A DNA stretch of 64,000 nucleotides from Mycolicibacterium lutetiense (lineage in GTDB: Bacteria; Actinomycetota; Actinomycetes; Mycobacteriales; Mycobacteriaceae), in the NCBI RefSeq assembly GCF_017876775.1, contig NZ_JAGIOP010000002.1:4092001-4156000 (forward strand), in the 5' to 3' direction. The notes beneath the pieces were generated by a model, which was given only the letters and a program-made list of their open reading frames with translations, was not told where the DNA came from and did no database searches. Position numbers and translations under genes: made by a program. Numbering within the stretch: position 1 is the stretch's first letter; each line of letters opens with the position of its first letter. This document shows positions 2,329 to 38,044 of the stretch, in pieces.

Positions 2329-2559
2329 GTGAGTATCAATCCGTTTGACGACGACAATGGCAGCTTTCGCGTCTTGGTCAACGACGAGGAGCAACACAGT
2401 CTGTGGCCAGCATTCGCTGACGTCCCTGCCGGCTGGAAGGTTGTTTACGGCGAAGCGGATCGAGCTTCCTGCTTCGACTACATCGAACAGAACTGGCCTG
2501 ACATCCGCCCTAAGAGTCTGCGCGACAGGTTGGCGCAGAGCCAGGGGTCTGACAACTAG
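2329..2559 (+). CDS. MbtH-like NRPS adenylation-domain chaperone (copy 1)
   Basis: 76-residue protein of the MbtH family. These bind adenylation domains and are often needed for their folding and activity. The signature is intact: [10 protein letters not shown] near residues 18-27, the PAGW segment, and WPDIRP near the C terminus, with the three family tryptophans present. I chose the GTG at 2329 because it follows a strong GGGGAGGA site and gives the usual 70-76 residue size; the paralogue at 42540 starts at the equivalent ATG. An in-frame upstream start at 2269 would add 20 unconserved residues. It is the first gene of the operon and ends 44 bases before NRPS-A, so it most likely serves the NRPS-A and NRPS-B adenylation domains. 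Confidence 0.95.
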
Positions 2560-2603
2560 AAGAGCCGGGGGGCTAACAACAGATTTCGCGGTGGGAGAGT
2601 CTG

Positions 2604-5600
2604 ATGCAGCACGTTGAACAAGCGCTGCCGGTAACACGCGCGCAGCTCGACATTTGGCTTGCGCACGACGTGGCAGAGTCCGGCACGGAATGGTTACTCG
2701 GCCTATTCGTGAAAATCGCGGGCGCGCTCGACCGCGACGCCCTTGAGTGGGCGATCCGCCGGGTGGTGCGAGAGGCTGAACCCCTCAGGGCCACCTTCTT
2801 CGAGGTGAACGGGCAGGTCTACCAAAAGGTAGTCGACCACCCCGATGTGGGGCTGGCCTTCTACGACCTGCGCAGCGCGTCCGATCCCGTCGCAGAAGCC
2901 CGTGACATGGCAGCCTCGATCCAGCGCACGCCAATGTCTTTCACCGGACCGCTGTTCAGATTTGCACTGTTCCAGACACGCGACGATGAACACTTCCTGA
3001 TCGCGTGCTGTCACCACATCGTGCTCGACGGGACCGGGATTGCGCTCGTCGGATCTCGGCTTGCATCGGTGTATTCCGCAGTCTGTTCCGGCGCACCCAT
3101 ACCCCCGCCGATCTTCGGATCGCTGGCCGATCTGATCGACGACGAGTCGACGTACGAAGCCTCCAGGGAATATCTCGATGACCAGGCCTACTGGACTGGG
3201 AATCTTCCGCCGGAAGCGGGCCCGAACTCTTGGCAGACTGATGCCGTTGATACCGAGGAGGTGCATTGGCCTTCTGCCTCAGTTCAATTCGAATCAGAGG
3301 TGCTGCGTCAAGTCGACATACTCGCCCGGTCGAAGAATGTTGCTCGTTCATCGATCATCACTGCGGCGTGTGCGTTGCTGGTGCGTGGGTGGTGCGCTGA
3401 GGGCTCAGATGTTGTGCTCGACTTTCCGGTCAGCCGGCGTGTAAGTCCAGAATCGCGGACGCTGCCCGGCATGGTGGCCGGCGTGGTGCCGCTCGTGGTG
3501 AAGGCCTCACCCGCAACGTCGATCTCCGAATTCCTCGACGATGTCGAGAGCCACATACAGGAAGCCCTGCAGCATCAGCGCTTTCCGGTACACACGCTAG
3601 AGCGCAAGGTCAACCCGCGGGTGGCGGGCCAGATGGCGAATCGGGTGAGTGTCAACTTCCTTCCGTCTACGTTCACGCTGGACTTCGGTGGCGCGGAGGC
3701 TTCGGCGTCGTTGACCAACGCTGGCGTTGTCGGTGGCTTCGGTCTCGTCTTCTCCAGTGCCGGAGATGAACTGGTCCTCAGCACGATGGGCACGGGTCAA
3801 CCTTTCTCTAGTTTTGGCGTAGCAGACCTGGCGGAGCGGTTGCAGCGGATTCTGGTTGCGTTCGTTTCCGATCCGGCGCAGCGGTTGTCGTTGGTGGATG
3901 TGCTTGATGCTGCTGATTGTGTGCGGTTGGATGCGGTTGGTCATCGGGCGGTTTTGACGCGGCCGGTGGTGGAGTCTTCGATTCCGGCGGTTTTCGCAGG
4001 CCAGGTTGTTCGTGCTCCGGATGCGGTGGCGGTGTCGTTCGAGGGCGTCTCGTTGTCGTATCGGGAGTTGGATGAGGCGTCGAATCGGTTGGCGCACTCG
4101 CTGAGTGCCCAAGGGGCGCGACCTGGTGAGTGTGTGGCGTTGATGCTTGAGCGTTCAGCGCGGGCGGTTGTGGCGATTTTGGGTGTGTTGAAGTCGGGGG
4201 CGGCGTATCTGCCGATTGATCCGGCGCATCCCGATGCTCGTGTTGAGTTCATGCTGGCCGATGCGGCGCCGGTCGCGGTCATCACGACGGCTGGGTTGGC
4301 TGAGCGGTTGCACGGTTCCGGTGTGTCGGTGATCGACGTTGAGGATCCTCGGGTTGATTCTCAGTCCAGTGCGGCGTTGCCGGTTCCTGCGCCCGATGAT
4401 GTGGCGCACATTATTTACACGTCTGGGACCACGGGGACGCCGAAAGGTGTTGCGGTTACTCATCAGAACGTGACGCGGTTGTTCGACGGCATGGATGTGG
4501 GTATCGAGCTGGGGCCGCAGCAGGTGTGGTCTGCGTGTTCGTCGTTGGCGTTCGACTATTCGGTGTGGGAGATCTGGGGGGCTCTGCTGCATGGTGGGCG
4601 TTTGGTGGTGGTGCCCGAGTCGGTGACGCGCTCGCCGCGGGATTTGCAGGCGTTGGTTGTTGCTGAGGGTGTGACAGTGTTGAGTCAGACACCTTCTGCG
4701 GTGGGGGTTTTGGATCCGCAGGTGTTGGGTTCGGTGTCGGCGTTGATGGTGGCTGCTGAGGCGTGCCCGCCGGATGTGGTGGATCGGTGGGCGCCGGGTC
4801 GGGTGATGGTCAATGGTTATGGTCCGACGGAGACGACGGTGTATGCCACGATCAGCGCTCCGCTTCAGGCTGGGCCGGGCGTGGTGCCGGTCGGCGTGCC
4901 GGTGCCGGGTGCGGCGTTGTTCGTCGTGGACCGGTCGCTACGTCCGGTTCCCCCCGGTGTGGTGGGTGAGTTGTATGTCGCCGGCCGCGGCGTGGGCGTC
5001 GGCTATGTGCGGCGCGCGGGGTTGACCGCCTCGAGGTTCGTAGCGTGCCCGTTCGGCGCTCCTGGTGCTCGGATGTATCGGACTGGGGATCTGGTGTCGT
5101 GGGGCCCGGATGGGCAGTTGCGGTATGCCGGGCGGGCTGATGAGCAGGTCAAGATTCGTGGGTATCGCATCGAACTCGGGGAAATCCAAAGCGCGCTGGC
5201 TGATGTGGAGGGTGTGCAGCAGGCGGTGGTGATTGTCCGTGAGGACCAGCCGGGGGACAAGCGCCTGGTCGGCTACATCACCGGCTCAGCCGATCCCGCG
5301 GTGGTCCGCGCACAGCTCTCGCAGCGGTTGCCGGCCTACATGGTGCCCGCCGCAGTGGTCGTCCTCGACGCAGTGCCGTTGACGGTCAACGGCAAGCTCG
5401 ACAAACGCGCTCTGCCCGCACCCGAATACACCGACACTGACCGTTACCGGGCTCCGAGCACGGCTACCGAGGAAATCCTGGCCGGTATCTACGCCCAAGT
5501 CCTGGGCCTGGAACGCGTCGGTATCGACGACTCCTTCTTCGATTTGGGCGGGGACAGTATTCTCGCGATGCGGGTTGTGGCCGCAGTCAACACGAACTTG

Positions 5601-8600
5601 GATGCCGGACTGGCGGTACGCACGTTGTTCGACGCGCCGACGGTGGCGCAGTTGGCACCACATGTCGGTGAGGATTCGGAACGGCGTGCGCCGTTGGTGG
5701 CGGGCGACCGTCCTGCTCTGATCCCGTTGTCCTTCGCGCAGAACCGTATGTGGTTCCTCAATCGGTTCGAGGACGGGGTCGCGACCTACAACATGCCGAT
5801 CGGGTTCCGGATCAACGGTGCGCTGGATCTGGATGCACTCGATGCGGCCCTTGATGATGTGATCACCCGTCACGAATCGCTGCGCACGGTGTTCCCCGAC
5901 ATCGACGGGGTGCCCTCGCAGAAGGTTCTGCCCGTGCAGCCGGGGCTGTGGCGGCGCGGAGGCCCAGCGGTGGCGCCGGTAGCGGAAGCCGATCTGGTCG
6001 GAGAGCTGATCTCCCTGGCGGGCTACACCTTTGATCTGGCGACCGAGATTCCGATCCGGGCCCAAATTTATGCCGTGGGACCCGAACAGTATGTCCTCGG
6101 AATCGTCTTGCACCACATCGCTTTCGACGGCTGGTCGATGGCGCCCATGGTCAAGGATGTCGGGGTCGCCTATGCAGCCCGCTGCGCCGGGCAGCTGCCC
6201 GATTGGTCACCGCTGCCCGTCCAGTACGCCGATTACACATTGTGGCAACAAGACTGGCTGGGATCCGAATCTGATCCCGACAGTGTGCTCGCCAGCCAAC
6301 TGACTTATTGGCGGCGGGAACTGGCGGATCTTCCCGAGGTCGTGTCGCTAACCGCGGATCGGCCACGCCCACCGGCACCCAGCTATCGCGGCGACGCGGT
6401 CGATCTGCGTATCGATCCCGAGTCCTGGGCAGGGATCAAGGCCGTGGCCGCGGCGCACAACGCAACGGTGTCAATGGTGTTGCAGGCCGCGATGGCGGTG
6501 GCGCTGCACCGCGCCGGCGTCGGTGAGGACATCGCGCTGGGCACCCCGATCGCCGGGCGGATGGACCAGGCCATTGATGAGCTGGTCGGTTTCTTCGTCA
6601 ACACCTGGGTGCTACGGGTAGGTGTCGACCCTGCGTTGCGGTTCAGCGAGGTGCTGGAACGGGTGCGGCAGAAGGCCCTGGACGCCTATGCCAATCAAGA
6701 TGTGCCGTTCGAGCTTTTGGTAGAGCGGCTCAACCCGACACGATCCACCTCGCACCATCCACTGTTCCAGGTGGCCTTGGCCTTCCAGAACAATGTGCGC
6801 CCCGAGATCCAGCTGGACGAGCTCTACGTCGAGCCGATGGTTGCCGACATCCGCACTGCCCGGTTCGACCTCGAATTCGATCTGCGAGAACTGTCCAGCG
6901 GAGACGCGAGCGCGCTGTTCGATCTGCACGCAGTGCCTGCCGAGGGCTGCGGTGCGCTGATGGCGGCAGGCACGGTCGCTTATGCCACCGATCTGTATGA
7001 CCGCTCCAGTGTCGAGCGGATGGTGGGGTGGTTCGGCCGCGTCGTCGAGGCTGTGGTGTCCGACCCGTCGGTGGTCGTGGGCGAGGTGGGCCTCCTGGAT
7101 CACGACGAGCAGAACCTCTTGCTGCACATGTGGTCCGGTGCCGAGGTGAGTGGCCCGAAGGGCTTGGCCCCGGAGTTGTTGGCTGCGGCAGTGGCCGCTG
7201 ATCCCGATGCCGTCGCGGTGGTGGACGGAACACGCGAGCTGTCGTACCGGGAGCTGGATGAGGTCTCCAACCAGCTGGCACGGGCGTTGATCGAAGCGGG
7301 GGTTGGCCCCGAGCATGCGGTCGGGGTGGCGATGGGTCGCTGCGCGGAGCTGGTGATCGCCTGGTGGGCGGTGCTCAAGGCAGGTGGGGTGTACGTGCCG
7401 GTTGATCCGGGCCACCCGGCCGAGCGAGTCTCCACGGTGCTGGACACCGCCGAAGCAGTTTGCGTGCTCACCTGCGGCATCGGTGCGGTCGAGGGGACCG
7501 GCAGCCGACTCGTGGTTCCGCTAGATGTGGTTGATCTGTCCGAGCACAGTGCGGATCCTGTGACGGATACGGATCGACTGGCGCCTTTGAGTGTTGACGA
7601 TGCGGCATACGTAATCTTCACGTCGGGTTCCACGGGTACGCCGAAGGGTGTGGCGATCAGCCATGCCGGGGTGTTGGGGGTGGCAGCCGCGCACCACGAT
7701 CTACTCGGTCTGACTCCGCGGGCGCGGGTGCTGATGGTGGCCGCGCCGACGTTCGATGCCTCGGTATTCGAGTGGCTGTGGGCAGTGGCTTCGGGGGCCG
7801 CGCTGGTGGTGGCCCCGCCGGATTCCTACGCGGGTGACGCACTGACGGCGGTGATCGAGGACCAGCAGGTTGAGGCGGCGCTGATCACTCCGACGGTGCT
7901 GGCGACCCTGGACCCGGCCGAGATCGACGGGTTGGACACGTTGGTCACAGGTGGTGAGGCGTGCCCGGCCGAGTTGGTGGCGGCGTGGGCACCGGGGCGG
8001 CGGATGTTCAATGCTTACGGTCCGACCGAGGTGACCATCTGGGCCACTTGGAGTGCGTTGTCGGCCGGACAGCCCGTGCGGATCGGTGCCCCGGTCCCGG
8101 GTACGTGTGCGTTGGTGTTGGATGCCCGGCTGAATCCGGCTCCGGTCGGAGTCGTGGGTGAGCTGTACCTGGCCGGCCCGGTGCTGGCACGTGGCTATGT
8201 GGGACGACCTGATCTGACGGCGGATCGCTTCGTGGCCAATCCCTTTGGGGTTCCGGGGACGCGTCTCTATCGCACCGGCGATCTGGTGCGCTGGACCCCG
8301 ACGGGCAGCCTGGAATACCTGGGACGTGCGGACGCCCAGGTCAAACTGCGTGGGCAGCGCCTGGAACTGGGCGAGATCGAGAACACCTTGCTGGCCTCCC
8401 CGCAGGTCACCCGTGCGGCTGCGGCCGTGCATCGGGGCAGCACCGGTGTCGATCATCTGGTTGGCTACATCGCCCTCGAGCAGACCAGCACCGCCGATTA
8501 CGACGCCGACGTTGTCGACCAGTGGCAAGGCATTTACGACGAGCTCTACGACGCCGATCTCGACGCCGTCGAGTTCGGTAACGATTTCCGCGGCTGGAAC

Positions 8601-11600
8601 AGCAGCTACACCGACGATCCGATTCCCCTTCACGAGATGGAGGAATGGCGCTCGGCCACCGTGGATCGGATTCTGGCACTGCGGCCGCAGCGGGTGCTGG
8701 AGCTCGGCGTCGGATCTGGTTTGCTGCTGTCCCAGCTTGCTCCGAAGTGCGTGGAGTACTGGGGCACAGACTTTTCCGCGCCGACCATCCAGAAGCTGCA
8801 GACGGCGGTGGCCGGCCGGCCCTGGGGCGATCGGGTCCATCTTCTGACCCGGCCTGCGCACATCACCGCGGAGTTGCCGCAGAACCAGTTCGACATGGTG
8901 GTGATCAACTCGGTGGTCCAGTACTTCCCGAGCGCCGGGTACCTGGCCGAGGTCATCGACAAGGCAGTGGAACTGCTGGCGCCGGGCGGCACGCTGTTCA
9001 TCGGTGACGTGCGCAATCACAGCCTGCAAGGAGCGTTCCAGACAGGTATCGTCCTCGCGCGCAGCCGCAACGGCACCGATACCGACGAGGTCCGCCAACG
9101 GGTTCAGCGCGCGATGCTGGGCGAGCACGAGTTGCTGCTCGCCCCAGAGTTTTTCACCACCTGGGCAGCCGACCATCCGTCCGTGGGCGGTATCGGTATC
9201 CAGGTCAAGCGCGGCGAGGCCGACAACGAGCTGAGCCGGTACCGCTACGACGTGATCGTCCACAAGTCGCCCACCCAGGTGTGCTCGCTGGCCGGCGCCC
9301 CGAACTGGACGTGGACGGACTGTGCGGGTCTGAGCGGGCTGCTGGCCGAGTTGACGGCTCAGCACCCGTCCACCGTGCGGGTCAGTTCCATTCCCCGCGC
9401 CGGCGTGATCGCCGATGTGGTGACCGAACAAGCTCTGGGCGCTGGGCTCCCACTCGCCGAGGCGCTAGCCCACGCCGATTCCGTCGCCGAGGACGTCGTC
9501 ACCCCAGAAATGGTGTACCGCCTCGGCGCTGCCGCCGGGTACCACGTCGCAGTCACGTGGGGAACTCAACCCGGCACCCTGGATGCCGTCTTCATCGCCG
9601 TCTCCGATGGTGAGTCGCTACCCGCGCTCACCGAGCTCTACCAGCCCGCAGCGGACTCCCGTCAGCGCGGCGGTTACGCCAATGACCCGCATACCAACTC
9701 GAAGGTCACTACGGTCCGTCAGTGGTTGTTCGAGCAGTTGCCCGAGTACATGGTGCCGAGTCAGATCGTGGTGCTCGACGAGTTCCCGTTGACTTCTTCC
9801 GGCAAGATCGATCGCAAGGCTCTGCCTGAACCCACCTTTGTCGCCACATCCTTCCGAGCTCCGCAGACCGATACGGAAAAGATCGTCGCCGAGGTGTTCA
9901 CCGAGGTTCTGGGACTCGGAAGGGCAGGTCTCGACGACGACTTCTTCGTTCTCGGCGGCGATTCCCTGATCGCCATCCGGGTCAGCGCGCGTTTGCAGTC
10001 CGCTCTTGGCCGGGATGTGCCGGTTCGCTACTTGTTCGAGGCATCCACGGTGGGTGGATTCGCCGACTATCTCGATCGGCACCAGGACGGCGTGGCCCGG
10101 CCCCCGCTGGCTGCCCGGCATCGTCCGGCGGCCGTTCCGTTGTCGTATGCCCAGCAACGATTGTGGTTCTTGGAGCAACTACAGGGACCGTCGCCGATCT
10201 ACAACATGGCGGTCGCGTTACGGCTCAGTGGGCGCCTGGATGAAGATGCCCTGGGCGTAGCACTTGCCGATGTCATCGGCCGTCAGGAAAGCCTCCGTAC
10301 CGTGTTCACCTCGGTCGACGGGGTACCTCAACAGGTGGTACTCAGCGCCGACCAGGCTGATCTGGGGTGGCAGATCGTTGACGCCGACGGATGGCCCACA
10401 GCCCGGCTCGACGAGGCGATCGGTGCGACAGCACGCCACAGTTTCGACCTCGTGAGTGAGATCCCGATCAAGGCAACACTTTTCCGTGTCAGTGAGAATG
10501 AGCACGTGCTGGCGGCGGTCGTGCACCACATCGCCGCCGACGGCTGGTCGGTGACTCCGCTGGTGGTTGATCTGGCGACTGCCTACGCCAGTCGGTGCAC
10601 AGGGGAGGCCCCGGATTGGGAACCCCTGCCGGTGCAGTATGCCGATTTCACGTTGTGGCAGCAGGAATGGCTGGGGTCGACGTCTGATCCGGACAGTGTG
10701 ATCGCCGGGCAGCTGAGCTACTGGGAGGACGAGCTGGTTGAGTTGCCCGACCGGTTGGAGCTACCGACGGACCGCCCGTATCCGCCGGTGGCCGACTACC
10801 AGGGCTCCAGTGTGGCTGTGGATTGGCCGGCCGAGTTGCAGCAACAGATCGCCCGGGTGGCCCGGGAGCAAGGCGCGACGAGTTTCATGGTCGTCCAGGC
10901 GGCGCTGGCGGCACTGATGGCTCAGCTGAGCGCGAGCACTGATGTGGCCGTGGGCATCGCGTCTGCCGGCCGTGGCGAGCCCGCGCTGGACGAGTTGGTG
11001 GGCTTCTTCGTCAACACGCTGGTGTTGCGCGTGGACCTGGCCGGAGATCCCACGGTTGCCGACCTGTTGGGTCAGGTGCGGCGGCGCAGCTTGGCGGCGT
11101 TCGAGCATCAGGATGTGCCGTTCGAGGTGCTGGTGGACCGGCTCAATCCGGCCCGCAGCCTGACCCATCATCCGCTCGTGCAGGTCATGCTGACCTGGCA
11201 GAATCTGCCGTGGCAGCACAGCGATCCTACTGCGGCATTGGTGCTGGGCGATGTTGGCGTCACGCAGCTGGACGCCGAAACGCAAACGGCCCGTATGGAT
11301 CTGGTGTTTTCGCTGCGCGAACGTTTCAATGATGCCGGCGTACCGGCCGGTATCGACGGATCGGTGGAGTTCCGCACCGATGTGTTCGACGCGGCCACGA
11401 TCGAGACCTTGATCCAGCGTATGCAGCGGATGCTGGCGGTGATGACTGCGGACCCGGCCCAGCGGCTGTCGTTGGTGGATGTGCTTGATGCTGCTGATTG
11501 TGTGCGGTTGGATGCGGTTGGTCATCGGGCGGTTTTGACGCGGCCGGTGGTGGAGTCTTCGATTCCGGCGGTTTTCGCAGGCCAGGTTGTTCGTGCTCCG

Positions 11601-25100: not shown

Positions 25101-28100
25101 CCCGGTCGCTGGCTCATCACCCGCTGGTCCAGGTGGCGTTGGCCTGGCAGAACTTCACCGCCGACACTGCGACCGAATCGACTCTGGGTGAGGCGCAGGT
25201 CAGTCCGCTGCCGGTCGACACCCACGTGGCCCGGATGGATCTCACGTTCTCGTTGGCTGAACGGTGGAACGACGCCGGTGAGCCGGCGGGGATCGGCGGC
25301 ACGGTCGAGTTCCGCACCGACGTATTCGACGCGGCCAGTGTCGAAGCCATGATCGGACGGTTGGCGCGCGTCGCAGAGGCACTGATCGATGATCCGGCCC
25401 GGCGGCTGTCGTCGGTCGATGTGCTGGATGTTGTCGAGCATGCTCGCCTCGACGATGTCGGCAACCGGGCGGCATTGGCTGAGTCCCCGCTCCCTGTCAT
25501 GTCGATTCCGGGGTTGTTCGCTGCTCAGGCGGCTCGTGCGCCAGAGGCCGTGGCGGTGAGTTTCGATGGTCATTCGATGACTTATCGGGAGCTCGATGAG
25601 GCATCGAACCGCTTGGCGCACTGCCTAGTTGGCTTCGGCGCCGGCCCGGGTGAATGTGTGGCGGTGTTGGTGCCCCGGTCGGTTGAGGCGATCGTCGCGA
25701 TTCTGGGGGCGTTGAAGTCGGGGGCGTCGTATGTGCCGGTCGATCCTATGCATCCTGATGCGCGGATCCAGTTCATGCTCGGCGATGCGGCTCCGATTGT
25801 CGCGGTGACCACCCGTGAATTGCGGACACGTCTGGAAGGGATCGACCTGACCCTCGTAGACGTTGCCGATGCCGCGATCGATGCCGAACCCAGTACCGCG
25901 CTGCGGGGGCCCGATTCCGATGATGTGGCGTATTTGATTTACACCTCCGGGACGACGGGTGTTCCCAAGGGCGTGGCGATCAGTCATCGGAATGTGGTCC
26001 GGTTGTTGGAGACGTTGGATGTGGAGTTGGGTCTGGCGGGTCAGGTTTGGACTCAGTGTCATTCGTTGGCGTTTGACTATTCGGTGTGGGAGATCTGGGG
26101 GGCTTTGCTGTTCGGAGGCCGGCTGGTAGTGGTATCGGAGTCGGTGACACGATCTCCGGAAGAGTTGTTGGGCTTGCTGGTTGCCGAGCAGGTGACTGTG
26201 TTGAGTCAGACGCCGTCGGCGTTCTACGCCTTGCAGTCGGTGGACGCGCTGCAGCCTGAGTTGGGCCGTCAGTTGAAGTTGGAGACGGTGGTCTTCGGTG
26301 GGGAAGCGCTTGAACCACAGCGCCTTCGACCATGGTTCGAGGGACATTCGGGTTCGACTCGGTTGATCAACATGTATGGCATCACCGAGACGACGGTGCA
26401 CGCCTCGTTCCGGGAGATCGTGGCCAGTGATGCCGGGGGCAGCGCCAGTCCGATCGGTGTGCCATTGGACCATCTCGGGTTCTTCGTGCTGGATTCGTCG
26501 TTGCAGCCGGTGCCGGTGGGTGTGGTGGGCGAGCTGTATGTGGTCGGCGCCGGGTTGGGATTTGGTTACTGGCGGCGTGGGGGCCTGTGTGCGACGAGGT
26601 TTGTGGCGTGTCCGTTTGGTGGGGCCGGGGCGCGGATGTATCGGACCGGTGATCTGGCGGCGTGGGGTATCGATGGGCAGTTGCGGTATTTGGGGCGTGC
26701 TGATGAGCAGGTCAAGATTCGTGGGTACCGCATCGAACTAGGCGAAATTCAATCAGCCCTGGCAGATTTGGACGGAGTCAGACAAGCCGAGGTCATAGCG
26801 CGAGAGGATCGCCCCGGCGACAAGCGCCTGGTCGGCTATATCACCGGCAGCGCGGATCCGATCGCGGTTCGCGCCGCGTTGTCGGACCGGTTGCCCGGCT
26901 ACATGGTTCCCGCCGCGATCGTGGTTCTGGACAGCTTGCCGTTGACGGTGAACGGCAAACTCGATAAACGCGCTTTGCCGGCCCCTGACTACGTCAACGG
27001 TCAGGAGTACCGTGCCGCGGCCACTCCGGTCGAGGAGCTGCTGGCCGGTGTCTATGCCCAGGTTCTCGGTCTGGAACGCGTCGGGGTGGATGACTCGTTC
27101 TTCGACTTGGGCGGCGACTCCCTCTCGGCGATGCGGTTGATCAATGCGGTCAACGCCAGTCTGGACACTGATCTTGCGGTTCGCGCCGTGTTTGAGGCAC
27201 CCAGGGTGGCAGAGCTTGCGGCGCGTGTGGGCGAGAGTTCGGGTCGGCGCGAGCCGTTGGTGGTCCAACAACGCCCGGATGACCTCCCGCTGTCGTATGC
27301 CCAGCAGCGGTTGTGGTTCCTCGACCAGCTCGAGGGACCATCACCGATCTACAACATGCCGACCGCGTACCGGATCACCGGCGGGCTGGATGTCGACGCC
27401 CTAGGGCAGGCACTGGCCGACGTGGTGGAGCGCCACGAGTCTCTGCGTACGGTGTTCGCGGCGCTCGACGGTGTGCCTCGACAGGTTGTGGTGCCGGCGG
27501 AACAGGCCGATCTGGGGTGGCAGGTCGTTGACGCCGTGGACTGGTCCGTGGATCGACTACACGACGCGATTCGCGCGACCGTCGAATACAACTTCGATCT
27601 GTCAGCTGAGATTCCGTTGAGGGCAAGCCTTTTCCGAATGGGCGAGGGTGAACATGTCCTGGTTGCGGTAGTCCATCACATCGCCGGCGATGGCTGGTCG
27701 ATCGGTCCGCTGGTGCGTGATATCGGGGTGGCCTACGCGAGCCGGTGCGCGGGGCAGGTCCCCGGCTGGGCGCCGTTGCCGGTGCAATATGCGGACTACA
27801 CGTTGTGGCAGCGGTCGTATCTGGGTGATCTGACCGACCCTGACAGTCGAATTGCCGGACAATTGTCGTACTGGGAGCAGGTGCTGGCCGGGCTGCCGGA
27901 GCGTCTGGAGCTGCCCACTGACCGGCCATATCCGGCGGTGGCCGACTACCGCGGGGCCAGTCTCACGATGGAATGGCCGGTCGAGTTGCAGCAGCAGATC
28001 GCCCGCGCAGCGACTGAGCACAATGCGACCAGCTTCATGGTGGTACAGGCTGCCCTGGCCGTGTTGTTGTCGAACCTCAGCGGGAATTCGGATGTTGCGG

Positions 28101-31100
28101 TGGGGTTCCCGATCGCCGGGCGTAGTGATCCAGCATTGGATGAGTTGGTCGGGGTTTTCATCAACACACTGGTGCTACGGGTCGAGCTCGACGGTGACCC
28201 CACCGTTGCTGACCTGTTGGCCCAGGTGCGGCGACGCAGTTTGGCTGCCTACGAGCACCAGGATGTGCCTTTCGAGATGGTTGTCGACCGGCTCAACCCT
28301 GCCCGCAGTTTGACCCACCACCCGCTGGTCCAGGTGATGATGGCGTGGCAGAACCTGACCACGCAGGACGATGACCAAACGGCCTCACCGAATTTGGGTG
28401 GCATGCAGGCCACACCGCTGGAAGCGGACACTCAGGCCGCCCGCATGGATCTGACGATCTCGTTGGCAGAACGCTGGAGCGCCGGTGAGCCCGCCGGCAT
28501 CACTGGGGCTGTGGAGTTCCGCACCGATGTGTTCGATGCCGCCTCCATCCAGACCTTTATCGAGCGACTGACCCACGTGATCGAAGGTCTGACCGCCGAT
28601 CCATCAGCGACGTTGTCGTCCATAAACGTGCTGGAGGCAGATGACCACGCCCAACTCGACGGATGGGGCAACCGGCTCGTGCTGTCCGAGTCGGTGGCCG
28701 CGACGTCGATTCCCGCAGCGTTCGCCGAACAGGTGACGCGGGACCCAGCTGCGGTAGCGGTGGTGTGCGGTGAGAGTTCGTGGACGTATCGCGAGCTTGA
28801 TGAGGCGTCGAATCGCTTGGCACACCTGCTTGTTGGCCATGGGGCTGGATCGGGTGAATGTGTGGCGTTGCTGCTCAACCATTCGGCCGAGGCGATCGTC
28901 GCGATCCTGGCGGTGCTCAAGTCGGGGGCCGCGTACCTGCCGATCGACCCGATGGTGCCGGACGCGCGGGTCGAGTTCATGCTGGCCGACGCCGGCCCGG
29001 TCGCTGCAGTCACGACCTCGCAGTTGCGGACCCGACTGGATGGATGCGACCTGGCAGTCATAGACATCGCCGATACCCGGATCGCGACGCAATCCAGTAC
29101 CGCGTTGCGAGGACCGGCCGCCGATGACCTCGCCTATCTGATCTACACCTCGGGGACCACCGGTGTTCCGAAGGGCGTGGCGATCACTCATCAGAATGTG
29201 ACGCAGTTCCTCGGGGCCGTGGACCCGGCCCTGGTTGGTCCGGGAACCGTGTGGTCACAGTGGCATTCGCTGGTGTTCGACGTTTCGGTATGGGACATCT
29301 TCGGTGCCCTGTTGCACGGCGGCCGGTTGGTGGTGGTGCCCGAGGAGGTGGCCCGTTCTCCGCAGGACTTGCACGACTTGCTGGTGGCCCAGAAGGTCAG
29401 CGTCTTGAGCCAGACACCGTCGGCGGCGGGGATGCTCTCACCGGAAGGCTTGGAGTCCACCGCGTTGGTGGTGGCCGGGGAAGCCTGTCCGACGGAGCTG
29501 GTGCAGCGGTGGGCGTCGGGGCGGGTGTTGATCAACGCTTATGGGCCCACCGAGGCCACGGTGTATGCCGCGATAAGTGCGCCCTTGAAAGCTGAAGCAG
29601 CGGCGCCGAACATCGTTCCGATCGGGTCGCCGGCCCCCGGGGCCGCGTTGTTCGTCCTTGATCGCTGGCTGCGGGAAGTGCCTCCGGGTGTTGTAGGGGA
29701 GTTGTATGTGGCCGGCCGCGGTGTCGGTGTGGGCTATGTCGGTCGAGCCGGGTTGACCGCATCCCGCTTCGTCCCTTGCCCGTTCGGCGGTGGGGGGTCA
29801 CGCATGTACCGGACCGGCGATCTGGTGCGCTGGGGCAGTGATGGGCAGATGCAGTACCTCGGCCGCGCCGATGAACAGGTCAAGATCCGCGGCTACCGGA
29901 TCGAACTCGGCGAAATCCAGGTCGCACTGTCCGATCTGGACAGCGTGGAACAGGCCGTCGTCGTCGCCCGCGAGGACCACCCGGGCGAGAAGCGACTCGT
30001 CGGATACGTGACCGAGACGGCGCCCGGCCTGGTCGACTCAGGTAAGGCCCGAGCCCACCTGGCTGAGCACCTTCCGACTTACATGGTGCCTGCTGCCGTG
30101 GTGGTGGTCGACGCAATACCGTTGACGGTCAACGGCAAGTTGGACAGACGCGCGCTGCCGGCACCGGAATACGTCGATGCCGACAGCTATCGTGCCCCGA
30201 CCACCCCGGCCGAGGAGATCCTGGTCGGCATCTTCGCTCAAGTATTGGGTTTGGATCGGGTCGGAGTCGACGACTCGTTCTTCGATCTCGGCGGCGACTC
30301 CTTGTCAGCCATCCGGCTGATCAATGCCGTCAACACCGCATTCGACACTGATCTGGCAGTCCGCGCGGTATTCGACGCGCCGGCTGTGGCGCAGCTCGAG
30401 CCGCGAATCGCCATGGGTTCGGGCGAGCGGACCCCGTTGACGCCCATGCCTCGGCCCGCAGTGGTGCCGTTGTCGTATGCTCAGCAGCGGCTGTGGTTCC
30501 TGGACCAATTACACGGTCCTTCCCCGATTTACAACATGCCGATGATGTATCGGGTCACCGGATTGGACGTCTATGCGCTCCGCCTGGCCCTTGCCGATGT
30601 GGCAGCCCGGCATGAGAGTCTGCGCACGGTCTTTCCCGAGGTCAACGGTGTGCCAGGGCAGCTGGTCATTCCTGCCGACCAGGCTGATATCGGGTGGCAG
30701 GTTGTTGATGTCGCCGGCTGGCCTGCGGAGGAGCTGTCGGACGCCATCGACTCAGCTGTCCGGCACCCCTTCGATCTGAACAACGAGATCCCGATCTGGG
30801 CAAGGCTTTTCCGTGTTTCTGAGGATGAGCATGTGCTGGTGGCGGTGGTGCACCACATCGCTGGGGACGCTTGGTCCTTCGCTCCCCTCGCCCGTGATGT
30901 GGCCGCCGCCTACGCCGCCCGATGTGGCGGGCAGGCGCCGGAGTGGTCCCCTCTGCCGGTGCAGTATGTGGATTACACGTTGTGGCAGCGCGAGTATCTC
31001 GGTGAGCTGTCCGATCCCCAGAGTCGTATCGCCGGGCAACTGGCGTACTGGGAGGATGCGTTGGCGGGGTTGCCGGAGCGGTTGGAGTTGCCGACGGATC

Positions 31101-34100
31101 GGCCTTACCCGGCGGTGGCCGATTATCGGGGCGCGGTTGTGGAGGTGGCTTGGTCGGCGGTGTTGCAGCGGCGGGTGGCGGTGGTGGCGCGGGAGCACAA
31201 TGCGACCAGTTTCATGGTGGTGCAGGCTGCGTTGGCGGTGTTGTTGTCGGGTTTGGGTGCCAGTTCTGATGTGGCGGTGGGTTTCCCGATTGCCGGGCGC
31301 AATGATCCGGCGTTGGCTGATCTGGTCGGGTTCTTTGTGAACACCTTGGTGTTGCGGATGGATGTGTCGGAGGATCCGACGGTTGCTGAGTTGTTGGGGC
31401 AGGTGCGTCAGCGCTGCTTGGCTGCTTATGAGCATCAGGATGTGCCGTTCGAGGTGTTGGTGGAGCGGCTCAACCCGACCCGTAGTTTGAGCCATCATCC
31501 GTTGGTCCAGGTGATGTTGGCCTGGCAGAACCCCGCGAATGCGCCCGGTTCCGAGCCGCCGGCGGGTGATGTGCAGGCTGCGGCACTGATGGCCGAAACC
31601 CATACCGCACGTATGGATCTGGTTTTTGCTCTCGGAGAAAGGTACGACGCGGAGGACGCCTGGGCCGGGATCGGTGGTTCGGTCGAGTTCCGCACTGATG
31701 TATTCGACGCCGGCACGATCGAGGTGATCGTCGGGCGGTTGGAGCGGATTCTGGCGGCGATGACGGCCGATCCGGCCCAGCGCTTGTCGTCGATCGGTGT
31801 GTTGGACACCGACGAGCATGCCCGTCTCGACGAGCTCGGAAACCTGGCCGCGCTGACCGCACCGGCGAGGATGGCGGGCTCGATTCCGGAGGTGTTCGCC
31901 CAGCAGGTGGCTCGGGTGCCGGATGCAGCAGCCGTGACCTTCGACGGCAGGTCCATGTCGTATCGAGAACTCGACGAAGCCTCGAATCGGCTGGCGCACC
32001 ACCTTACCGGTCATGGTGCCGGCCCCGGTGAGTGTGTGGCGTTGGTGCTGAATCGTTCGGTTGACGCGATTGTGGCGATCTTGGCGGTGTTGAAGACAGG
32101 GGCGGCGTACTTGCCGTTGGATCCGGCGTACCCAGACGCACGGATCGCCGTGGTGGTCAGTGATGCCCGACCGGTGGCCGCGGTCACTGTCGGTGGGTTG
32201 GTGGGGCGGTTGGATCGTCTGGGTGTGGTTGTTGTCGATGTGGCGGATCGGCGGATCGAGGCGCAATCGAGCAGCGCATTGCCGGTGCCGACGGGGGATG
32301 ACATCGCTTACGTGATCTATACGTCGGGTACGACGGGTGTGCCGAAGGGGGTGGCGGTCCCGCACAGCAATGTGGCGGGGTTGCTCTCGTCGTTGGAGTT
32401 GGGGTTGCCGCCGGCGGGGGTGTGGTCGCAGTGGCATTCGTATTCGTTTGATGTGTCGGTGTGGGAGATTTTCGGTGCGCTGTTGAGCGGTGGCCGGTTG
32501 GTTGTGGTGCCTGATGCGGTGGCGGGTTCGCCGGATGAGTTGCATGCGTTGTTGATTGCTGAGCAGGTGACGGTGTTGAATCAGACTCCGTCTGCTGCGG
32601 CGGCGTTGTCGTCGGAGGGTTTGGAGTCGGCGGCGTTGGTGGTGGCTGGTGAGGCGTGTCCGGTTGAGTTGGTGGATCGCTGGGCTCCGAATCGGTTGAT
32701 GGTCAACGGTTATGGTCCGACGGAGACGTGGTACACGTCGTTCAGTGCACCGCTGGTTGCCGGGTCGGGTGTGGTACCGATCGGTGTGCCGGTGTCGGGG
32801 GCGGCGTTTTTTGTGCTGGACCCGTGGTTGCGTCCGGTGCCTGCGGGGGTGGTGGGTGAGTTGTATGTGGCCGGGTCTGGTTTGGCGTGCGGGTATTTGG
32901 GTCGGGGTGGGTTGACCGGATCGCGGTTTGTGGCGTGTCCGTTTGCCGCGGGGCAGCGGATGTATCGCACTGGGGATCTGGTGTCCTGGGGATCTGATGG
33001 TCAGTTGCTCTATCTGGGTCGGGCTGATGAGCAGGTCAAGATCCGTGGGTATCGCATCGAGTTGGGTGAGGTTCAGGCGGTGCTGGCTGGTCTGGAGGGT
33101 GTGGGTCAGGCGGCAGTCATTGCTCGTGAGGATCGTCCGGGTGACAAGCGCCTTGTGGGTTATGTCACCGAATCATCCTCAGGCACTGTTGATTCGGTGA
33201 CAGCTCGGACTGCCCTAGCGCAGCGGTTGCCCAGCTATATGGTGCCCGCCGCGGTCGTGGTCCTCGATGCTTTGCCGTTGACGGTCAACGGGAAGTTGGA
33301 TCGTCGGGCGCTGCCGGTGCCGGATTACGTCGATGCTCGGCAGTATTGTTCTCCGTCAACGCTGACTGAGGAGATCTTGGCCGGCGTTTACGCCGAAGTT
33401 CTCGGTCTGGAGCGGGTCGGGGTCGAGGATTCGTTCTTTGATCTGGGTGGGGATTCGTTGTCGGCGATGCGGGTGATCGCTGCGGCCAATGCCAGCTTGG
33501 GTGCTGAGTTGGCGGTGCGGGTGATGTTCGATGCGCCGACGGTGCGGGGTTTGGCTGCGCAGGTGGGTAAGGCTGAGAGTTCGCGGGAAGTGGTTCCGGT
33601 TGAGGTGCTCAAACCGGGAAGTGGTGTGCCGTTGTGTTGTGTTCATGATGGTTTCGGGTTGAGTTGGTCGTATCGGGCGTTGGGTCAATATGTCGATGGT
33701 CCGATCATCGGGATCAATCGAGCTCCAGCCGATGGCGAACCCGAAGCGCAGTCGATTCAGGCCATGGCAGCCAGTTATGCCGATCGGCTCCAGGAGCTGT
33801 ATCCGGTTGGGCCGTATCGGATTCTCGGGTGGTCGTTTGGTGGTGTGGTGGCTCACGCGTTGGCTGTCGAGCTTCAGCGGCGTGGGTGTGAGGTTCAGCG
33901 GCTGGTGATGTTGGATGGTTTGTTGAATCCGAACCGGTTCTGGAAACGCATCACCAGGAAGATTGCGAAGAATAAAGCGATGGCCGAGGGATGGGTTCTG
34001 GATTACATCCTGCGGACCAACAAGGTTCGAGTTCCGGTGCATTTTGGGCTGTTGACGTATTCACGGGTGGCCGACATCATTGCGCGGCACGGGGCCAGCC

Positions 34101-34441
34101 CTCCGTCTCGGCAGTTGGTCGATTTCATGGCGCGCAGTGTCAGTGCGGGTCAGTTGTTGCTGCTCGATCATCAGCCGCAACCGTTTGATGGTGATGTCGT
34201 GATGTTTTCGGCTGCGCGTCCTCGATGTGAGGACACCGGCGGGGATGGGCTCGTGCCGGGGTTGGCGCGTCTGCGCAACAGTCGGGCAGCCCGGTCGCTT
34301 TTGCATAGTTGGCGTCCTTATGTTTCCGGGAAGATCACGGTGCTACCGGTGGGCTGCACCCACTTCGAAATGTTCACCCCCGAATCACTGAGTGAATACG
34401 CCGAACAGCTGAAGTCGGTCTTGGAAAGTGCCGCGGAATAG
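22181..34441 (+). CDS. NRPS-B: four-module synthetase with terminal thioesterase
   Basis: 4086 residues. Order: short C-A linker 1-40, A6 45-535, T6 (Ser580); C7 630-1070, A7 1110-1600, T7 (Ser1647); C8 1695-2140, A8 2180-2660, T8 (Ser2707); C9 2755-3200, A9 3240-3715, T9 (Ser3759); thioesterase 3805-4086 with nucleophile Ser3885 in GWSFGG and His4061 in GCTHFEM. Signatures read against GrsA: A6 DYWSIGMVHK and A7 DYWSVGMVHK, close to the known threonine code DFWNIGMVHK; A8 DVWSVAAVYK; A9 starts DVWNVAG and then has a one-residue deletion at the 330/331 positions. The protein begins in the linker after a C domain, so it must take its acceptor chain from C6 of NRPS-A. GTG 22181 overlaps the NRPS-A stop and follows GGAGG (22168-22172), implying translational coupling. 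Inferred residues: Thr-Thr-Ala-Pro, released as a linear acid. Confidence 0.93.
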
Positions 34442-34559
34442 TTTCGTAACGATGCTCTGGCGCAAAAGCGTTGAGCGGCTGACGTGGGGACGGTGATCGC
34501 CAATGCGGACCACTTACAAACACGAGACGCGCGAATACAACGCCGATACAGTTCCAAAG

Positions 34560-35900
34560 ATGAGCAATGTCCTTGATGTGCTCGACCAGCGTACGTTTGA
34601 TCTCGGTCTGGCGATCGGAATCAACAGCCTTCTACAGAGCGTCTGGATTTATGACCGCCCGATCGGCATCGAAGGCCTGCGCCAGTTCCACGACCATCTC
34701 CGGCGGGGACGATTGTCCCGCGGCATCGAGCGGTCACCACTTTCGTTCGGTCGCCACCGCTGGGTAGCGTCGGATAATTCGTCCGAGCTCGAGGTTGTCG
34801 AGACAGCTAGGCCGCGTGAAGAATTCGACGACTGGCTCGACGAGCAGATCAATACTCCTCTTGATTGCGAGCGCGGACCCGGCTGGCACCTTGCCGTGCT
34901 CCCGTTCACCGACGGCGGCTCAGGTGTGAGCTTGGTCGTCTCGCACTGCCTCATCGATGGAGTCGGTCTGTGTGAGGCACTGGCTGATGCGGCACTCGGC
35001 CGTGTCGATCCGATCAGCTGGCCGGCTGCCGCAACGCGCGGTCGTTGGCAAGCCCTGAGGCAGGACACCTGGCAAACCGTGCGCGACATCCCCGCCATGG
35101 CTCGGGGCGTTATCGCCGCGATTCGGTTGGCCCGCCGTAGCAAGGAGGGCGCCGGAGCCGTAACCTCGGCCACCTCGCCGACTACCCCATCACCTGCACC
35201 CGCCGCCGTTTCCGACGAACCGATCCCGGTTCCAATGGCAACGATCCTCGTTGCTGCCGACGAATGGGATTCTCGTGCACAGGCGCTCGGTGGGACCAGC
35301 AACACCCTTCTTGTGGGGTTGGCTGCCCGGCTCGCCCATCGCGCAGGACGTGTCGGTGCAGACGGATCGGTGATCGTGATGATGCCGGTCAATCAGCGCG
35401 CCGACGGAGATACCCGCGCCAACGCGAGAAGCAGCGTCGCCGTCACGGTTGACCCCGCACTGGCGACCACGGACCTGCGTGAGATCCGGGCCGCGGTCAA
35501 ACAAGCGCTGATTCGCCACGGGGAGGTTCCCGACGAGGAGCACGCAGTGAATGCCATCATTCCGCTGTTACCGAAGCGGTTCCTCGGGGCGACTTCCCGT
35601 GTCGGTTCAACCAACCAGGTCGGTTCATCCAACCTCGGCGTGGTCAACCCTGCCGCCGGCCGGGCGGATGGTACGGACGCCGATTACTTCGCCGTGAAAG
35701 TTCTCCCGCACCTCGGGCTGACAGAGGCGATGCTGCACCGGTTCGGCGGGACCCAGTCGTTCCTTTCCGGAAGAGCAAACGGACAGGTATTTGTCTCGGC
35801 CCATTCATATCTACCTGGTCGAGTCAACACGAATGAGCGATTGAGACAAGATCTTTCACACGCATTGAACGATTTCTCGCTGACGGGCACGAATCTTTGA
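34560..35900 (+). CDS. Condensation/WS-DGAT-like acyltransferase (copy 1)
   Basis: 446 residues. The acyltransferase motif HxxxDG is present as HCLIDG (His129-Gly134), in the superfamily that includes NRPS condensation domains, PapA proteins and wax ester/diacylglycerol acyltransferases. The C-terminal half has the LPVNQR-like and SNLG segments of that fold. No signal peptide or membrane segment is evident. I chose the start at 34560 (MSNVLD) because the paralogue at 39531 begins with the same sequence; an in-frame ATG at 34503 would add 19 residues. Neither start has a strong ribosome site. It lies 118 bases after NRPS-B and 32 bases before an ICMT-like gene, so it belongs to the same operon. 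Proposed role (inference): O-acetylation of threonine side chains of the lipopeptide. N-terminal acylation is less likely because NRPS-A has its own starter C domain. Confidence 0.8.
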   Translation: MSNVLDVLDQRTFDLGLAIGINSLLQSVWIYDRPIGIEGLRQFHDHLRRGRLSRGIERSPLSFGRHRWVASDNSSELEVVETARPREEFDDWLDEQINTPLDCERGPGWHLAVLPFTDGGSGVSLVVSHCLIDGVGLCEALADAALGRVDPISWPAAATRGRWQALRQDTWQTVRDIPAMARGVIAAIRLARRSKEGAGAVTSATSPTTPSPAPAAVSDEPIPVPMATILVAADEWDSRAQALGGTSNTLLVGLAARLAHRAGRVGADGSVIVMMPVNQRADGDTRANARSSVAVTVDPALATTDLREIRAAVKQALIRHGEVPDEEHAVNAIIPLLPKRFLGATSRVGSTNQVGSSNLGVVNPAAGRADGTDADYFAVKVLPHLGLTEAMLHRFGGTQSFLSGRANGQVFVSAHSYLPGRVNTNERLRQDLSHALNDFSLTGTNL

Positions 35901-35932
35901 GCGTCCCCGAATCGCACAACCAGGAGGATGAC

Positions 35933-36607
35933 ATGAGCACCAATCTTCGGGTGGCTATCCAATCAGTTCTCGGCCTGGCGGCGTTGGGCGCGCTGCTGTT
36001 CGTGCCGGCAGGGACGTTCAACTACTGGCAGGCATGGGTTTTCCTGGCCGTGTACTCGGTCATGGCAATTCTGTCTACCGTCTACCTGTTGAGAAAGGAC
36101 AAGGCGGTCGTGGAGCGGCGCATGCGCGTCGGGCAGAACGCCGAGTCGAGACCGGTGCAGAAGGCCGTACTCGGCGTCATCGCAGTCTTGTCCGTCGCGC
36201 TGCCCGTGTTCTGCGGCCTCGATCATCGCTTCGGCTGGTCCCCGGTGCCCACCGCCGTATCTTGGATCGGTAACGCGATGTTCGCGATCGGCCTCGTGAT
36301 CACGATCTTCACGATCGTCCAAAACAGCTACGCGTCAGCCAACATCACCGTCGAGTCTGAGCAGACGCTGGTCTCCACCGGCCTCTACGGGCTGGTGCGG
36401 CATCCCATGTACATGGGGGCGCTGCTCATGGTGGCGGGAATGCCTCTAGCGCTCGGTTCATGGTGGGGGCTGGCCGTTCTCATTCCGGTCCTGACTCTGT
36501 ACACCTTCCGTATCCAGGATGAGGAGAAGCTGCTTCGACAGCAACTCGCCGGGTATGGGGAGTACGCGCAGAAGGTGCACTACCGGCTCGTGCCACTGGT
36601 TTGGTGA
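35933..36607 (+). CDS. ICMT-like integral membrane methyltransferase (copy 1)
   Basis: 224 residues with four to five hydrophobic segments and the isoprenylcysteine carboxyl methyltransferase/phospholipid methyltransferase signature: GLYGLVRHPMYMG, followed by the paired acidic residues of DEEKLL and a C-terminal YRLVPLVW. Family members use S-adenosylmethionine at the membrane, and ICMT proper makes carboxyl methyl esters. ATG 35933 is preceded by a perfect AGGAGG; the in-frame start at 35897 lacks such a site. It is the last gene of the NRPS operon. Proposed role (inference): methyl-esterification of the C-terminal carboxylate freed by the NRPS-B thioesterase. The closest copy is at 37379-38044. 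Confidence 0.85.
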   Translation: MSTNLRVAIQSVLGLAALGALLFVPAGTFNYWQAWVFLAVYSVMAILSTVYLLRKDKAVVERRMRVGQNAESRPVQKAVLGVIAVLSVALPVFCGLDHRFGWSPVPTAVSWIGNAMFAIGLVITIFTIVQNSYASANITVESEQTLVSTGLYGLVRHPMYMGALLMVAGMPLALGSWWGLAVLIPVLTLYTFRIQDEEKLLRQQLAGYGEYAQKVHYRLVPLVW

Positions 36608-37378: not shown

Positions 37379-38044
37379 TCACCAGACCAGTGGCACTAGG
37401 CGGTGTGGAACTTTCGTCATGTAGCTGTGGTAGCCCGCCAACTCCTCTTGGAGCAGCGTTTCCTCGTCATGGATTCGCAGAGCGAATATCACGGGGGCGG
37501 GAATGGCGAAAATGAGTCCCCAGTAGGAACCGAGCGCGAGGGGCGTACCGAAATACAGAAGCGTGTTGGCCGTGTACATCGGGTGCCGCACGATGCCGTA
37601 TATGCCGGTGGAGATGAGGGGCTGGTTTTCCTCCACTCGTATGGTTGTGGCCGCATGGCTGTTCTGGGCGAAGACCAGTGCTGCCCCAACAATTCCCCCT
37701 ACGACCAGGGCATAGCCAAGGACGGAGATCAGCACGGGAACGTGCGACCAACCAAAACGGTGGTCGAGCGAGCTGACGACGACCAATGCGATCCAGCAGG
37801 TATATACGCCCCATATCAAGGCCTTCTGCACCGGTCGTGATTCGGAGGCAGGCATGCGACGTTGGAGCATCGCGGGGTCCGTGCGTAGGAGATAGATGCT
37901 CGCGATCCACGAGGCAAGTACCAGCACGCCGAAAAACAGCCATGCCTGCCAGTAGTGGAGAGTGCCTGCCGGCGCGAACAGCAGCAACCAGAGTGCCGCC
38001 ATTATGAGGGATCCGGTCAGCAGCATTTTGAGCATGGATTTCAT
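37379..38044 (-). CDS. ICMT-like integral membrane methyltransferase (copy 2)
   Basis: 221 residues with the same architecture as the protein at 35933: hydrophobic segments, GIYGIVRHPMYTAN, DEETLLQEEL and the C-terminal HRLVPLVW. I chose ATG 38044 because GGGGAG stands just before it and the MKS start matches the truncated copy at 37119; the longer frame to 38209 adds 55 unconserved residues. It follows the second acyltransferase by 161 bases on the same strand, repeating the acyltransferase-methyltransferase order of the forward operon. Substrate is inferred as for copy 1; a divided role between two lipopeptide forms, or simple redundancy, is possible. Confidence 0.85.
   Translation of the reverse strand: MKSMLKMLLTGSLIMAALWLLLFAPAGTLHYWQAWLFFGVLVLASWIASIYLLRTDPAMLQRRMPASESRPVQKALIWGVYTCWIALVVVSSLDHRFGWSHVPVLISVLGYALVVGGIVGAALVFAQNSHAATTIRVEENQPLISTGIYGIVRHPMYTANTLLYFGTPLALGSYWGLIFAIPAPVIFALRIHDEETLLQEELAGYHSYMTKVPHRLVPLVW

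Follow-up and report, generated by a model that had tools for sequence, protein, structure and literature searches.

Fortuitine is the lipopeptide acyl-Val-MeLeu-Val-Val-MeLeu-Thr-Thr-Ala-Pro-OMe with acetylated threonines and reportedly belongs to the early examples of peptide sequencing by mass spectrometry. The peptide of the mycobacterial glycopeptidolipids (GPLs) is Phe-Thr-Ala-alaninol, the product ending in alaninol. A work by Rouhiainen from 2010 is said to have described an anabaenopeptin synthetase in which two starter modules serve as alternatives. The 1965 work of Barber, Jolles, Vilkas, and Lederer dealt with the fortuitine of M. fortuitum (title as cited in PMC3509699, partial text). 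The peptide of the lipooctapeptide GL8P was solved by nuclear magnetic resonance as T-A-F-I-Y-L-T-T, and conservation of its locus has been reported solely for the M. abscessus complex and a few closely related organisms (PMC11978893, partial text). The DNA analyzed here, “the window,” is a stretch of 64,000 nucleotides from Mycolicibacterium lutetiense (contig NZ_JAGIOP010000002.1, positions 4,092,001 to 4,156,000), which contains a cluster of nonribosomal peptide synthetase (NRPS) genes. It is highly probable from the order of the domains and from the residue codes that this cluster is a fortuitine-type lipopeptide assembly line, and the assignment to fortuitine is supported. Literature searches, with most subscription journals outside their coverage, found no paper linking genes to fortuitine.

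The nine-module line and its residue codes

The genes for an MbtH-like protein, NRPS-A, and NRPS-B are, by their domain order, one collinear nine-module line with the code pattern a-b-a-a-b-c-c-d-e. Pfam models for the Condensation (C), AMP-binding (adenylation, A), PP-binding (T), and methyltransferase (MT) domains gave the order Cstarter-A-T-C-A-MT-T-C-A-T-C-A-T-C-A-MT-T-C for NRPS-A and A-T-C-A-T-C-A-T-C-A-T-TE for NRPS-B, which ends with a thioesterase (TE), and the two open reading frames (ORFs) overlap by 4 bases. The HHxxxD motif was present in all nine C domains and the GGDS site in all nine T domains of both proteins, and the TE of NRPS-B contained GxSxG. The starter C domain of NRPS-A shared 49 to 58% identity with its counterparts in GPL, GL8P, and GPL-like lines and about 21 to 26%, in long alignments, with the non-starter C domains of the same lines. 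A motif scan of the C domains of NRPS-A and NRPS-B revealed no epimerase-type motif. An MbtH homologue (79 to 96% identity) precedes NRPS-A in all seven fortuitine-type relatives searched, and no fatty-acid ligase was found among the seven upstream proteins tested.

An earlier reading of the same DNA, “the original prediction,” had proposed nine modules over two coupled proteins, a starter C domain, N-methyltransferases only in modules 2 and 5, a terminal thioesterase, and the absence of epimerization domains, all of which was borne out by the ORFs, their overlap, and the domain matches. It had placed the cluster between positions 2329 and 36607; the start agrees with that of the MbtH gene and the coordinates were correct, and the downstream genes NRPS-X, MT2, and AT2, which are treated below, had been left out.

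To obtain the codes, the A domains were aligned to the GrsA numbering, nine positions were read, and the invariant Lys was added. Mycobacterial NRPSs of known product were used for calibration, which were the GL8P lines and the GPL synthetases of two genomes, G094 and G098. Both genomes have the GL8P architecture, a hexamodular NRPS of 8,139 amino acids (aa) plus a bimodular NRPS, lying roughly 600 kb away from the GPL synthetase, and are taken as members of the M. abscessus group solely by this architecture. Their GL8P codes were, in order, Thr DFWSVGMVH, Ala DVWSVAAVY, Phe DVWTVVAMC, Ile DFWTVGVMW, Tyr DAESLAAIC, and Leu DFWTLGAVY. In both genomes, module 2 of the GPL synthetase, which we take to be the Thr module according to the GPL structure, had the code DYWSVGMVH.

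The signatures that had been proposed as identical in modules 1, 3, and 4 (code a) and in modules 2 and 5 (code b) were DYWSMAGVYK and DAFLVGAIWK, respectively, and thus indeed repeated. The Thr-like signatures of modules 6 and 7 were verified by the GPL Thr code, to which module 7 is identical and module 6 is one residue off, and the different signatures announced for modules 8 and 9 were DVWSVAAVYK and DVWNVAG-YK. The caution that A1, A2, A8, and A9 could not be called from the codes alone holds for A1, A2, and A9 but not for A8, which is identical to the GL8P Ala code. All positions accessible to calibration (Thr 6, Thr 7, and Ala 8) agree with the fortuitine sequence, and the only calibrated Leu code (DFWTLGAVY) differs from code a.

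No clear L5P-like calibrator for N-methyl-Val was present in 15 further lipopeptide-NRPS stretches and the flanks of 13 named loci. A related line in the genomes DL99 and G026, with a finisher code DVFSVALVH followed by two N-methylating modules (DAYVIVGIW and DAGVIVGVW), points to a further, uncharacterised N-methylated lipopeptide. Matches to the starter C domain are widespread in mycobacteria, occurring in 136 of 148 genomes of the genus, many at more than 50% identity, and include frames of more than 10,000 aa.

The corresponding locus in M. fortuitum and the fortuitine assignment

The class A β-lactamase of the window genome was identical at 232 of 262 positions to PDB 2cc1, which is listed as the M. 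fortuitum MFO β-lactamase (PMC3715408, partial text). The enzyme of another genome, G354, was identical to it at 260 of 262 positions, with the window genome as the next best among the 16 loci compared; 18 genomes had been searched, and G135 and G075, which yielded short matches only, were left out. Genome G354 is, by this protein, very probably M. fortuitum. That the window itself originates from M. fortuitum had been considered and was dropped, the comparison with the MFO β-lactamase being decisive. The window 16S gene is without the signature expected for M. fortuitum, a signature found in 11 of 396 genomes and so not specific. The three 16S genes of the window genome are identical over 1,490 bases and differ at two bases from M. 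setense over 1,440 positions; despite the near-identical 16S, the rpoB region is 93.7% identical to that of M. setense. Identities of this region were 93.6 to 94.9% to M. houstonense, M. setense, and M. septicum and 90.6 to 95.8% over all ten genomes compared.

The orthologous locus of G354 lies behind a RecQ-family gene that is identical at 658 of 710 positions to the RecQ-family gene upstream of the window. Its NRPS-A contains DFWSMAGVY in modules 1, 3, and 4, with Phe where code a of the window has Tyr, and DAFLVGAIW together with an MT domain in modules 2 and 5; its NRPS-B reads Thr-Thr-Ala-DVWNVAG-Y followed by a TE. Since G354 very probably represents M. fortuitum, this locus is likely responsible for fortuitine in that species; in the species of the window, the product would likely be fortuitine itself or a near analogue. 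The proteins with C domains in G354 are the fortuitine-type line, a GL8P-like pair, a group of 1,841, 1,492, and 1,200 aa, which is mycobactin-like as judged by size only, and two of less than 500 aa. The GL8P-type pair (G354:C1:3116000-3154000) has all eight adenylation codes of G094 (T-A-F-I-Y-L-T-T), and NRPS pairs similar in size to it occur in M. houstonense, DL99, and G302.

A search with the NRPS-B TE in 396 genomes of the genus yielded matches of at least 80% identity in nine genomes at 15 places, the window included. The nine loci are those of the window, G354, G333, G302, G244, G342, M. setense, M. houstonense, and M. septicum, the last three matching named loci of these species in contig and position. 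In the comparisons of domain order and codes, as well as of the junctions described below, short C and A matches were dropped; hits of less than 40% of the query were dropped in one homologue search and of less than 45% in the search for MbtH and MT1. All nine loci have NRPS-B as Thr-Thr-Ala-DVWNVAG-Y with a TE; in G244, the NRPS-B frame stops first and the TE is encoded in a different frame behind it. The codes at modules 1, 3, and 4 are equal in five of the nine (window, G354, G333, G302, and M. houstonense), and the two b codes are equal to each other in the window, G354, M. septicum, and G244. NRPS-A is incomplete in M. setense (frames of 850 and 2,252 aa) and cut by the contig end in G342.

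In the proposed pathway, the starter C domain would acylate residue 1 with a long-chain fatty acyl group, modules 1 to 5 of NRPS-A would make Val-MeLeu-Val-Val-MeLeu, and NRPS-B would append Thr-Thr-Ala-Pro before its TE frees the product as the free acid. A methyltransferase, MT1, may then methylate the C-terminal carboxyl group, and an HxxxD acyltransferase, acylT, may acetylate both threonines. The original prediction of fortuitine or a very close analogue is upheld by the repeat and methylation pattern, the Thr, Thr, and Ala codes, the TE, and the orthologous locus in G354, which also answers the proposal to look for the cluster in a fortuitine producer. Its claim of agreement at every position stands for the pattern, the N-methylation, Thr 6, Thr 7, and Ala 8, and for Val, MeLeu, and Pro it is the pattern that speaks. 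With such partly calibrated codes, the locus makes fortuitine biosynthesis testable by removal of single genes.

Several observations weigh against the assignment. The species of the window is not M. fortuitum, and the naming of G354 depends on one protein, the β-lactamase. Val, MeLeu, and Pro (modules 1 to 5 and 9) are uncalibrated and were placed by the repeat pattern, to which Leu for code a with MeVal for code b would lead just as well. The code of module 9 is without the DVQ that is presumably usual in Pro codes, and searches of the PDB with A1, A2, and A9 matched generic NRPS A domains, uninformative with regard to Val, Leu, or Pro. The line also varies within the group, with a Leu-like code at module 4 in M. 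septicum and G244 and two b codes differing from each other in G333, G302, and M. houstonense. The missing calibrators, the unusual code of module 9, and the Leu-like module 4 could also mean that the product is a close analogue in which some of the residues for a, b, or e differ, for instance by a swap to Leu and MeVal or by an end other than Pro, and that fortuitine comes from another locus. This is unlikely, given that the C-domain proteins of G354 include no other nine-module candidate and that the calibrated Leu code differs from a; a fortuitine-type line remains the preferred assignment.

The methyl ester and the acetyl groups would be added by the products of the genes behind NRPS-B. 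MT1 exceeds the Pfam cut-offs of isoprenylcysteine carboxyl methyltransferase (ICMT) and PEMT, matches the ICMT structure 4a2n (5.8e-7), and scored 68 with the ICMT equivalog model NF040696, which has a cut-off of 160. It follows NRPS-B and acylT in all nine fortuitine-type loci and is a candidate carboxyl methyltransferase that fits the methyl ester. An MT1 homologue (51% identity over 230 aa) begins right at the end of the final GL8P NRPS. For both GL8Pa and GL8Pb, the published formula is larger by exactly CH2 than the described parts with a free C terminus add up to, a surplus that a methyl ester would account for. A stretch of about 53 kb at the GPL locus contained no MT1 homologue. The ICMT-like enzyme is a gene candidate for methyl esterification of the C terminus, which has also been described for L5P.

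In acylT, the H of the HxxxDG motif is present in at least 90% and the D in all of the 31 aligned rows, and its WS_DGAT score was 23.4 at a cut-off of 23.6. The AlphaFold model (pLDDT 84.7) matched AzeD best (2.0e-17), followed by C domains, PapA5 (2.6e-14), and WS/DGAT (4.5e-13), with TM-scores of about 0.45 to 0.6. This makes it plausible that acylT acetylates the Thr residues of fortuitine. An acetyltransferase of the Atf1/Atf2 type was considered for acylT and rejected, because the GPL acetyltransferases Atf1 and Atf2 are described with ten putative transmembrane domains (PMC10400925, partial text), unlike acylT. A search at the GPL locus gave no homologue of acylT.

Both proteins may instead do other lipid work, with the methyl ester of fortuitine arising from extraction or by another enzyme. 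WS/DGAT-like proteins are numerous in mycobacteria, and the homology is distant for both proteins, as the two scores below their cut-offs indicate. The position of MT1 beside NRPS-B in all nine loci and the MT1 homologue at the end of the GL8P line, with none at the GPL locus, speak against such a function, which is unlikely; MT1 and acylT are preferred as candidate tailoring enzymes of the line.

NRPS-X, a second finisher

Behind MT1, the window contains genes for a second ICMT-like methyltransferase (MT2) and an acylT paralogue (AT2), followed by NRPS-X. MT2 relatives adjoin NRPS-X in five other loci (G354, G342, M. houstonense, M. septicum, and G244), and AT2 gave no Pfam or NCBIfam match at E 0.001. 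NRPS-X begins with an A domain like NRPS-B and has four modules, without a starter or first C domain. An X-type finisher occurs in all nine fortuitine-type loci, in G342 as the last module only, on a separate contig before the MT2, AT2, and htpG genes. It is open through four modules and the TE in seven of the nine (G354, G333, G302, G244, M. setense, M. houstonense, and M. septicum). The predicted tails vary: Thr-Ala-Leu-? in the window; Thr-Ala-Thr-a in G354; Thr-Thr-Thr-(module-9-like) in G333, G302, and M. setense; and a-Ala-NMe(DIWGLGQMW)-(module 9 code) in M. houstonense, M. septicum, and G244, and that of G342 ends with an a module. Within a genome, NRPS-B and NRPS-X are 43 to 99% identical by domain (A domains, 61 to 91%; C domains, 65 to 98%), with the peaks in different modules in different species, a pattern that looks like module exchange.

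Without a starter and a first C domain, NRPS-X must be fed by some NRPS ending in a C domain. The other C-domain frames of G333 are a group of 1,832, 1,493, and 1,175 aa (mycobactin-like by size only) and two of less than 500 aa; those of the window genome are a similar group, one of 474 aa, and one of 2,460 aa with two C domains elsewhere. In G354 and G302, the remaining lipopeptide line consists of a GL8P-like pair that has a finisher of its own. NRPS-A is therefore the only evident partner for NRPS-X. The first 36 residues of NRPS-B and NRPS-X agree at 24 to 32 positions in eight of eight genomes, three proteins without a match to the junction pattern and three fragments being left out of the count. 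The same comparison yielded means of 18.6 to 20.4 for the GL8P and GPL finishers of G094 and G098 and 23.2 to 27.5 for the finishers of G140, G027, and G125. Since other finishers reach such values, the similarity of the junctions hardly discriminates and weakly favors a pairing of NRPS-A with NRPS-X.

It is on balance probable that NRPS-A serves NRPS-B and NRPS-X alternatively, which would lead to two lipopeptide families sharing the acyl-Val-MeLeu-Val-Val-MeLeu half, with the second tail exchanged between species by module recombination and with a duplicate acyltransferase and carboxyl methyltransferase close by. A point against this is that the hand-over of the NRPS-A chain to NRPS-X is something we infer from the genes. 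NRPS-X may also be a decaying duplicate of NRPS-B without a product, so that only the NRPS-B route works. The window copy is interrupted inside its TE by an ISL3-family insertion sequence (IS) flanked on both sides by the 8-bp target repeat GCATTACC, and NRPS-B and NRPS-X have recombined modules in common, including a C domain that is 98% identical between them in G333. The two TE pieces were located separately, and the insertion looks recent because both halves are still recognizable. A duplicate in decay is rather doubtful when NRPS-X is present in nine of nine loci (in G342 the last module), is open over four modules and the TE in seven, and has codes that diverged into at least four tails.

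If the preferred alternative use of both finishers is true, and code a is Val, the second product of M. fortuitum would be acyl-V-mL-V-V-mL-Thr-Ala-Thr-Val-OMe, 2.016 Da above fortuitine, a difference easily lost in the isotope pattern of fortuitine. In this group of mycobacteria, the layout would exemplify variation of surface lipopeptides by swapping the later half of the line, and such loci offer natural pairs for NRPS docking studies. By title, none of the papers found in a literature search on alternative or bifurcating NRPS termination dealt with the subject. In G302, the interval between both finishers (39802-42697 of the reversed stretch) contains a partial thioesterase match (47%), a further relative of acylT, and a partial match to MT1, which may be what is left of a third finisher.

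Features of the cluster with their positions in the window
Feature	Position	Strand	Basis or remark
MbtH-like protein, first cluster gene	2329..2559	+	PF03621, 99 bits, 8e-29
NRPS-A: starter C, modules 1-5, terminal C domain belonging to module 6	2604..22184	+	ORF, 6526 aa
A core module 1, DYWSMAGVYK, Val expected from fortuitine	4404..5453	+	uncalibrated
A core module 2, DAFLVGAIWK, Leu expected	7605..8654	+	uncalibrated
N-methyltransferase of module 2, inserted in A domain	8697..8996	+	PF08242, 4.6e-14
A core module 3, DYWSMAGVYK, 99% identical to module 1	11985..13034	+	uncalibrated
A core module 4, DYWSMAGVYK	15144..16193	+	uncalibrated
A core module 5, DAFLVGAIWK	18312..19361	+	uncalibrated
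N-methyltransferase of module 5	19401..19700	+	PF08242, 2.9e-14
NRPS-B: first finisher, modules 6-9 and TE	22181..34441	+	ORF, 4086 aa
A core module 6, DYWSIGMVHK, Thr	22727..23776	+	one Val-to-Ile change from GPL Thr code
A core module 7, DYWSVGMVHK, Thr	25928..26977	+	code of GPL synthetase Thr module
A core module 8, DVWSVAAVYK, Ala	29132..30181	+	code of GL8P Ala-2 module
A core module 9, DVWNVAG-YK, Pro expected, unusual code with one-residue deletion	32306..33355	+	uncalibrated
Thioesterase of NRPS-B	33581..34438	+	PF00975, 1.5e-24, 87.9 bits; GWSFG motif
acylT: HxxxDG acyltransferase, C-domain/PapA/WS-DGAT fold, candidate Thr O-acetyltransferase	34503..35900	+	motif, predicted structure
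MT1: ICMT-like methyltransferase, candidate C-terminal methyl-ester enzyme for NRPS-B product	35897..36607	+	PF04140; NF040696 below cut-off; PDB 4a2n
MT2: second ICMT-like methyltransferase	37379..38209	-	
AT2: acylT paralogue, 65% identical	38206..39531	-	
NRPS-X: second finisher, A-T-C-A-T-C-A-T-C-A-T and first part of TE	42860..54796	+	Pfam domains
A core X6, DYWSVGMVHK, Thr	43412..44461	+	GPL Thr code
A core X7, DVWSVAAVYK, Ala	46631..47680	+	GL8P Ala code
A core X8, DFWTLGAVYK, Leu	49799..50848	+	GL8P Leu-6 code
A core X9, DFWSLGAVWK, Leu-like	52970..54019	+	code
ISL3-family IS splitting NRPS-X TE	54780..56238	-	transposase; 15-bp perfect terminal inverted repeats 54780-54794/56224-56238
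Rest of NRPS-X TE beyond IS	56238..56552	+	tblastn, 42% over 105 aa to TE of G354 NRPS-X

An IS1634-family transposase (window positions 8-1564) is located directly upstream of the cluster; the distance of about 1.2 kb between the RecQ-family gene and MbtH in G354 is too short for such a gene. On the other side, an SfLAP/Gap-type membrane protein (56611-57423) and a Pks2-like polyketide synthase of the phthioceranic-acid type (NF041183, 3550 bits; 57883-63966) adjoin the cluster, and their relatives adjoin the corresponding loci of G354, G342, M. setense, and DL99.

Comparison with known systems

With fortuitine, the predicted product shares nine residues, N-methylation at positions 2 and 5, the repeats, Thr-Thr-Ala at positions 6 to 8, and an acylated N terminus, and the methyl ester is matched by a candidate methyltransferase gene. 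The difference from the fortuitine work is that the species of the window is a relative of M. fortuitum and that the second finisher is new here.

The GL8P locus of M. abscessus (MAB_4691c/MAB_4690c; PMC11978893, partial text) resembles the cluster in its starter C domain, MbtH, and the split into a terminal C and an initial A domain. Ala, Leu, and Thr codes are common to both, and homologues of MT1 (51%) and acylT (41%) are nearby. GL8P differs by eight residues, epimerases, glycosylation, a single finisher, and the absence of an N-methyltransferase from the line, and the window cluster has neither the eight modules T-A-F-I-Y-L-T-T nor epimerases. The GPL synthetase Mps1/Mps2 is alike in the type of starter C domain, MbtH, the C/A split, and a Thr module with an identical code; it differs by four residues ending in alaninol and by the lack of an MT1 homologue in the roughly 53 kb searched, and in place of its four modules the window has nine, with other codes.

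L5P of M. avium paratuberculosis (PMC8103206, partial text) is likewise linear and N-acylated, contains an N-methylated residue, and ends in a methyl ester but has five residues; it is likened here by the description of the product. The anabaenopeptin synthetase (PMC8402340, partial text) is one line that uses two alternative partner proteins to make product variants. Its alternative modules are at the start and those of the window cluster at the end, and the alternative starter may be regarded, by analogy, as the nearest known precedent for two finishers.

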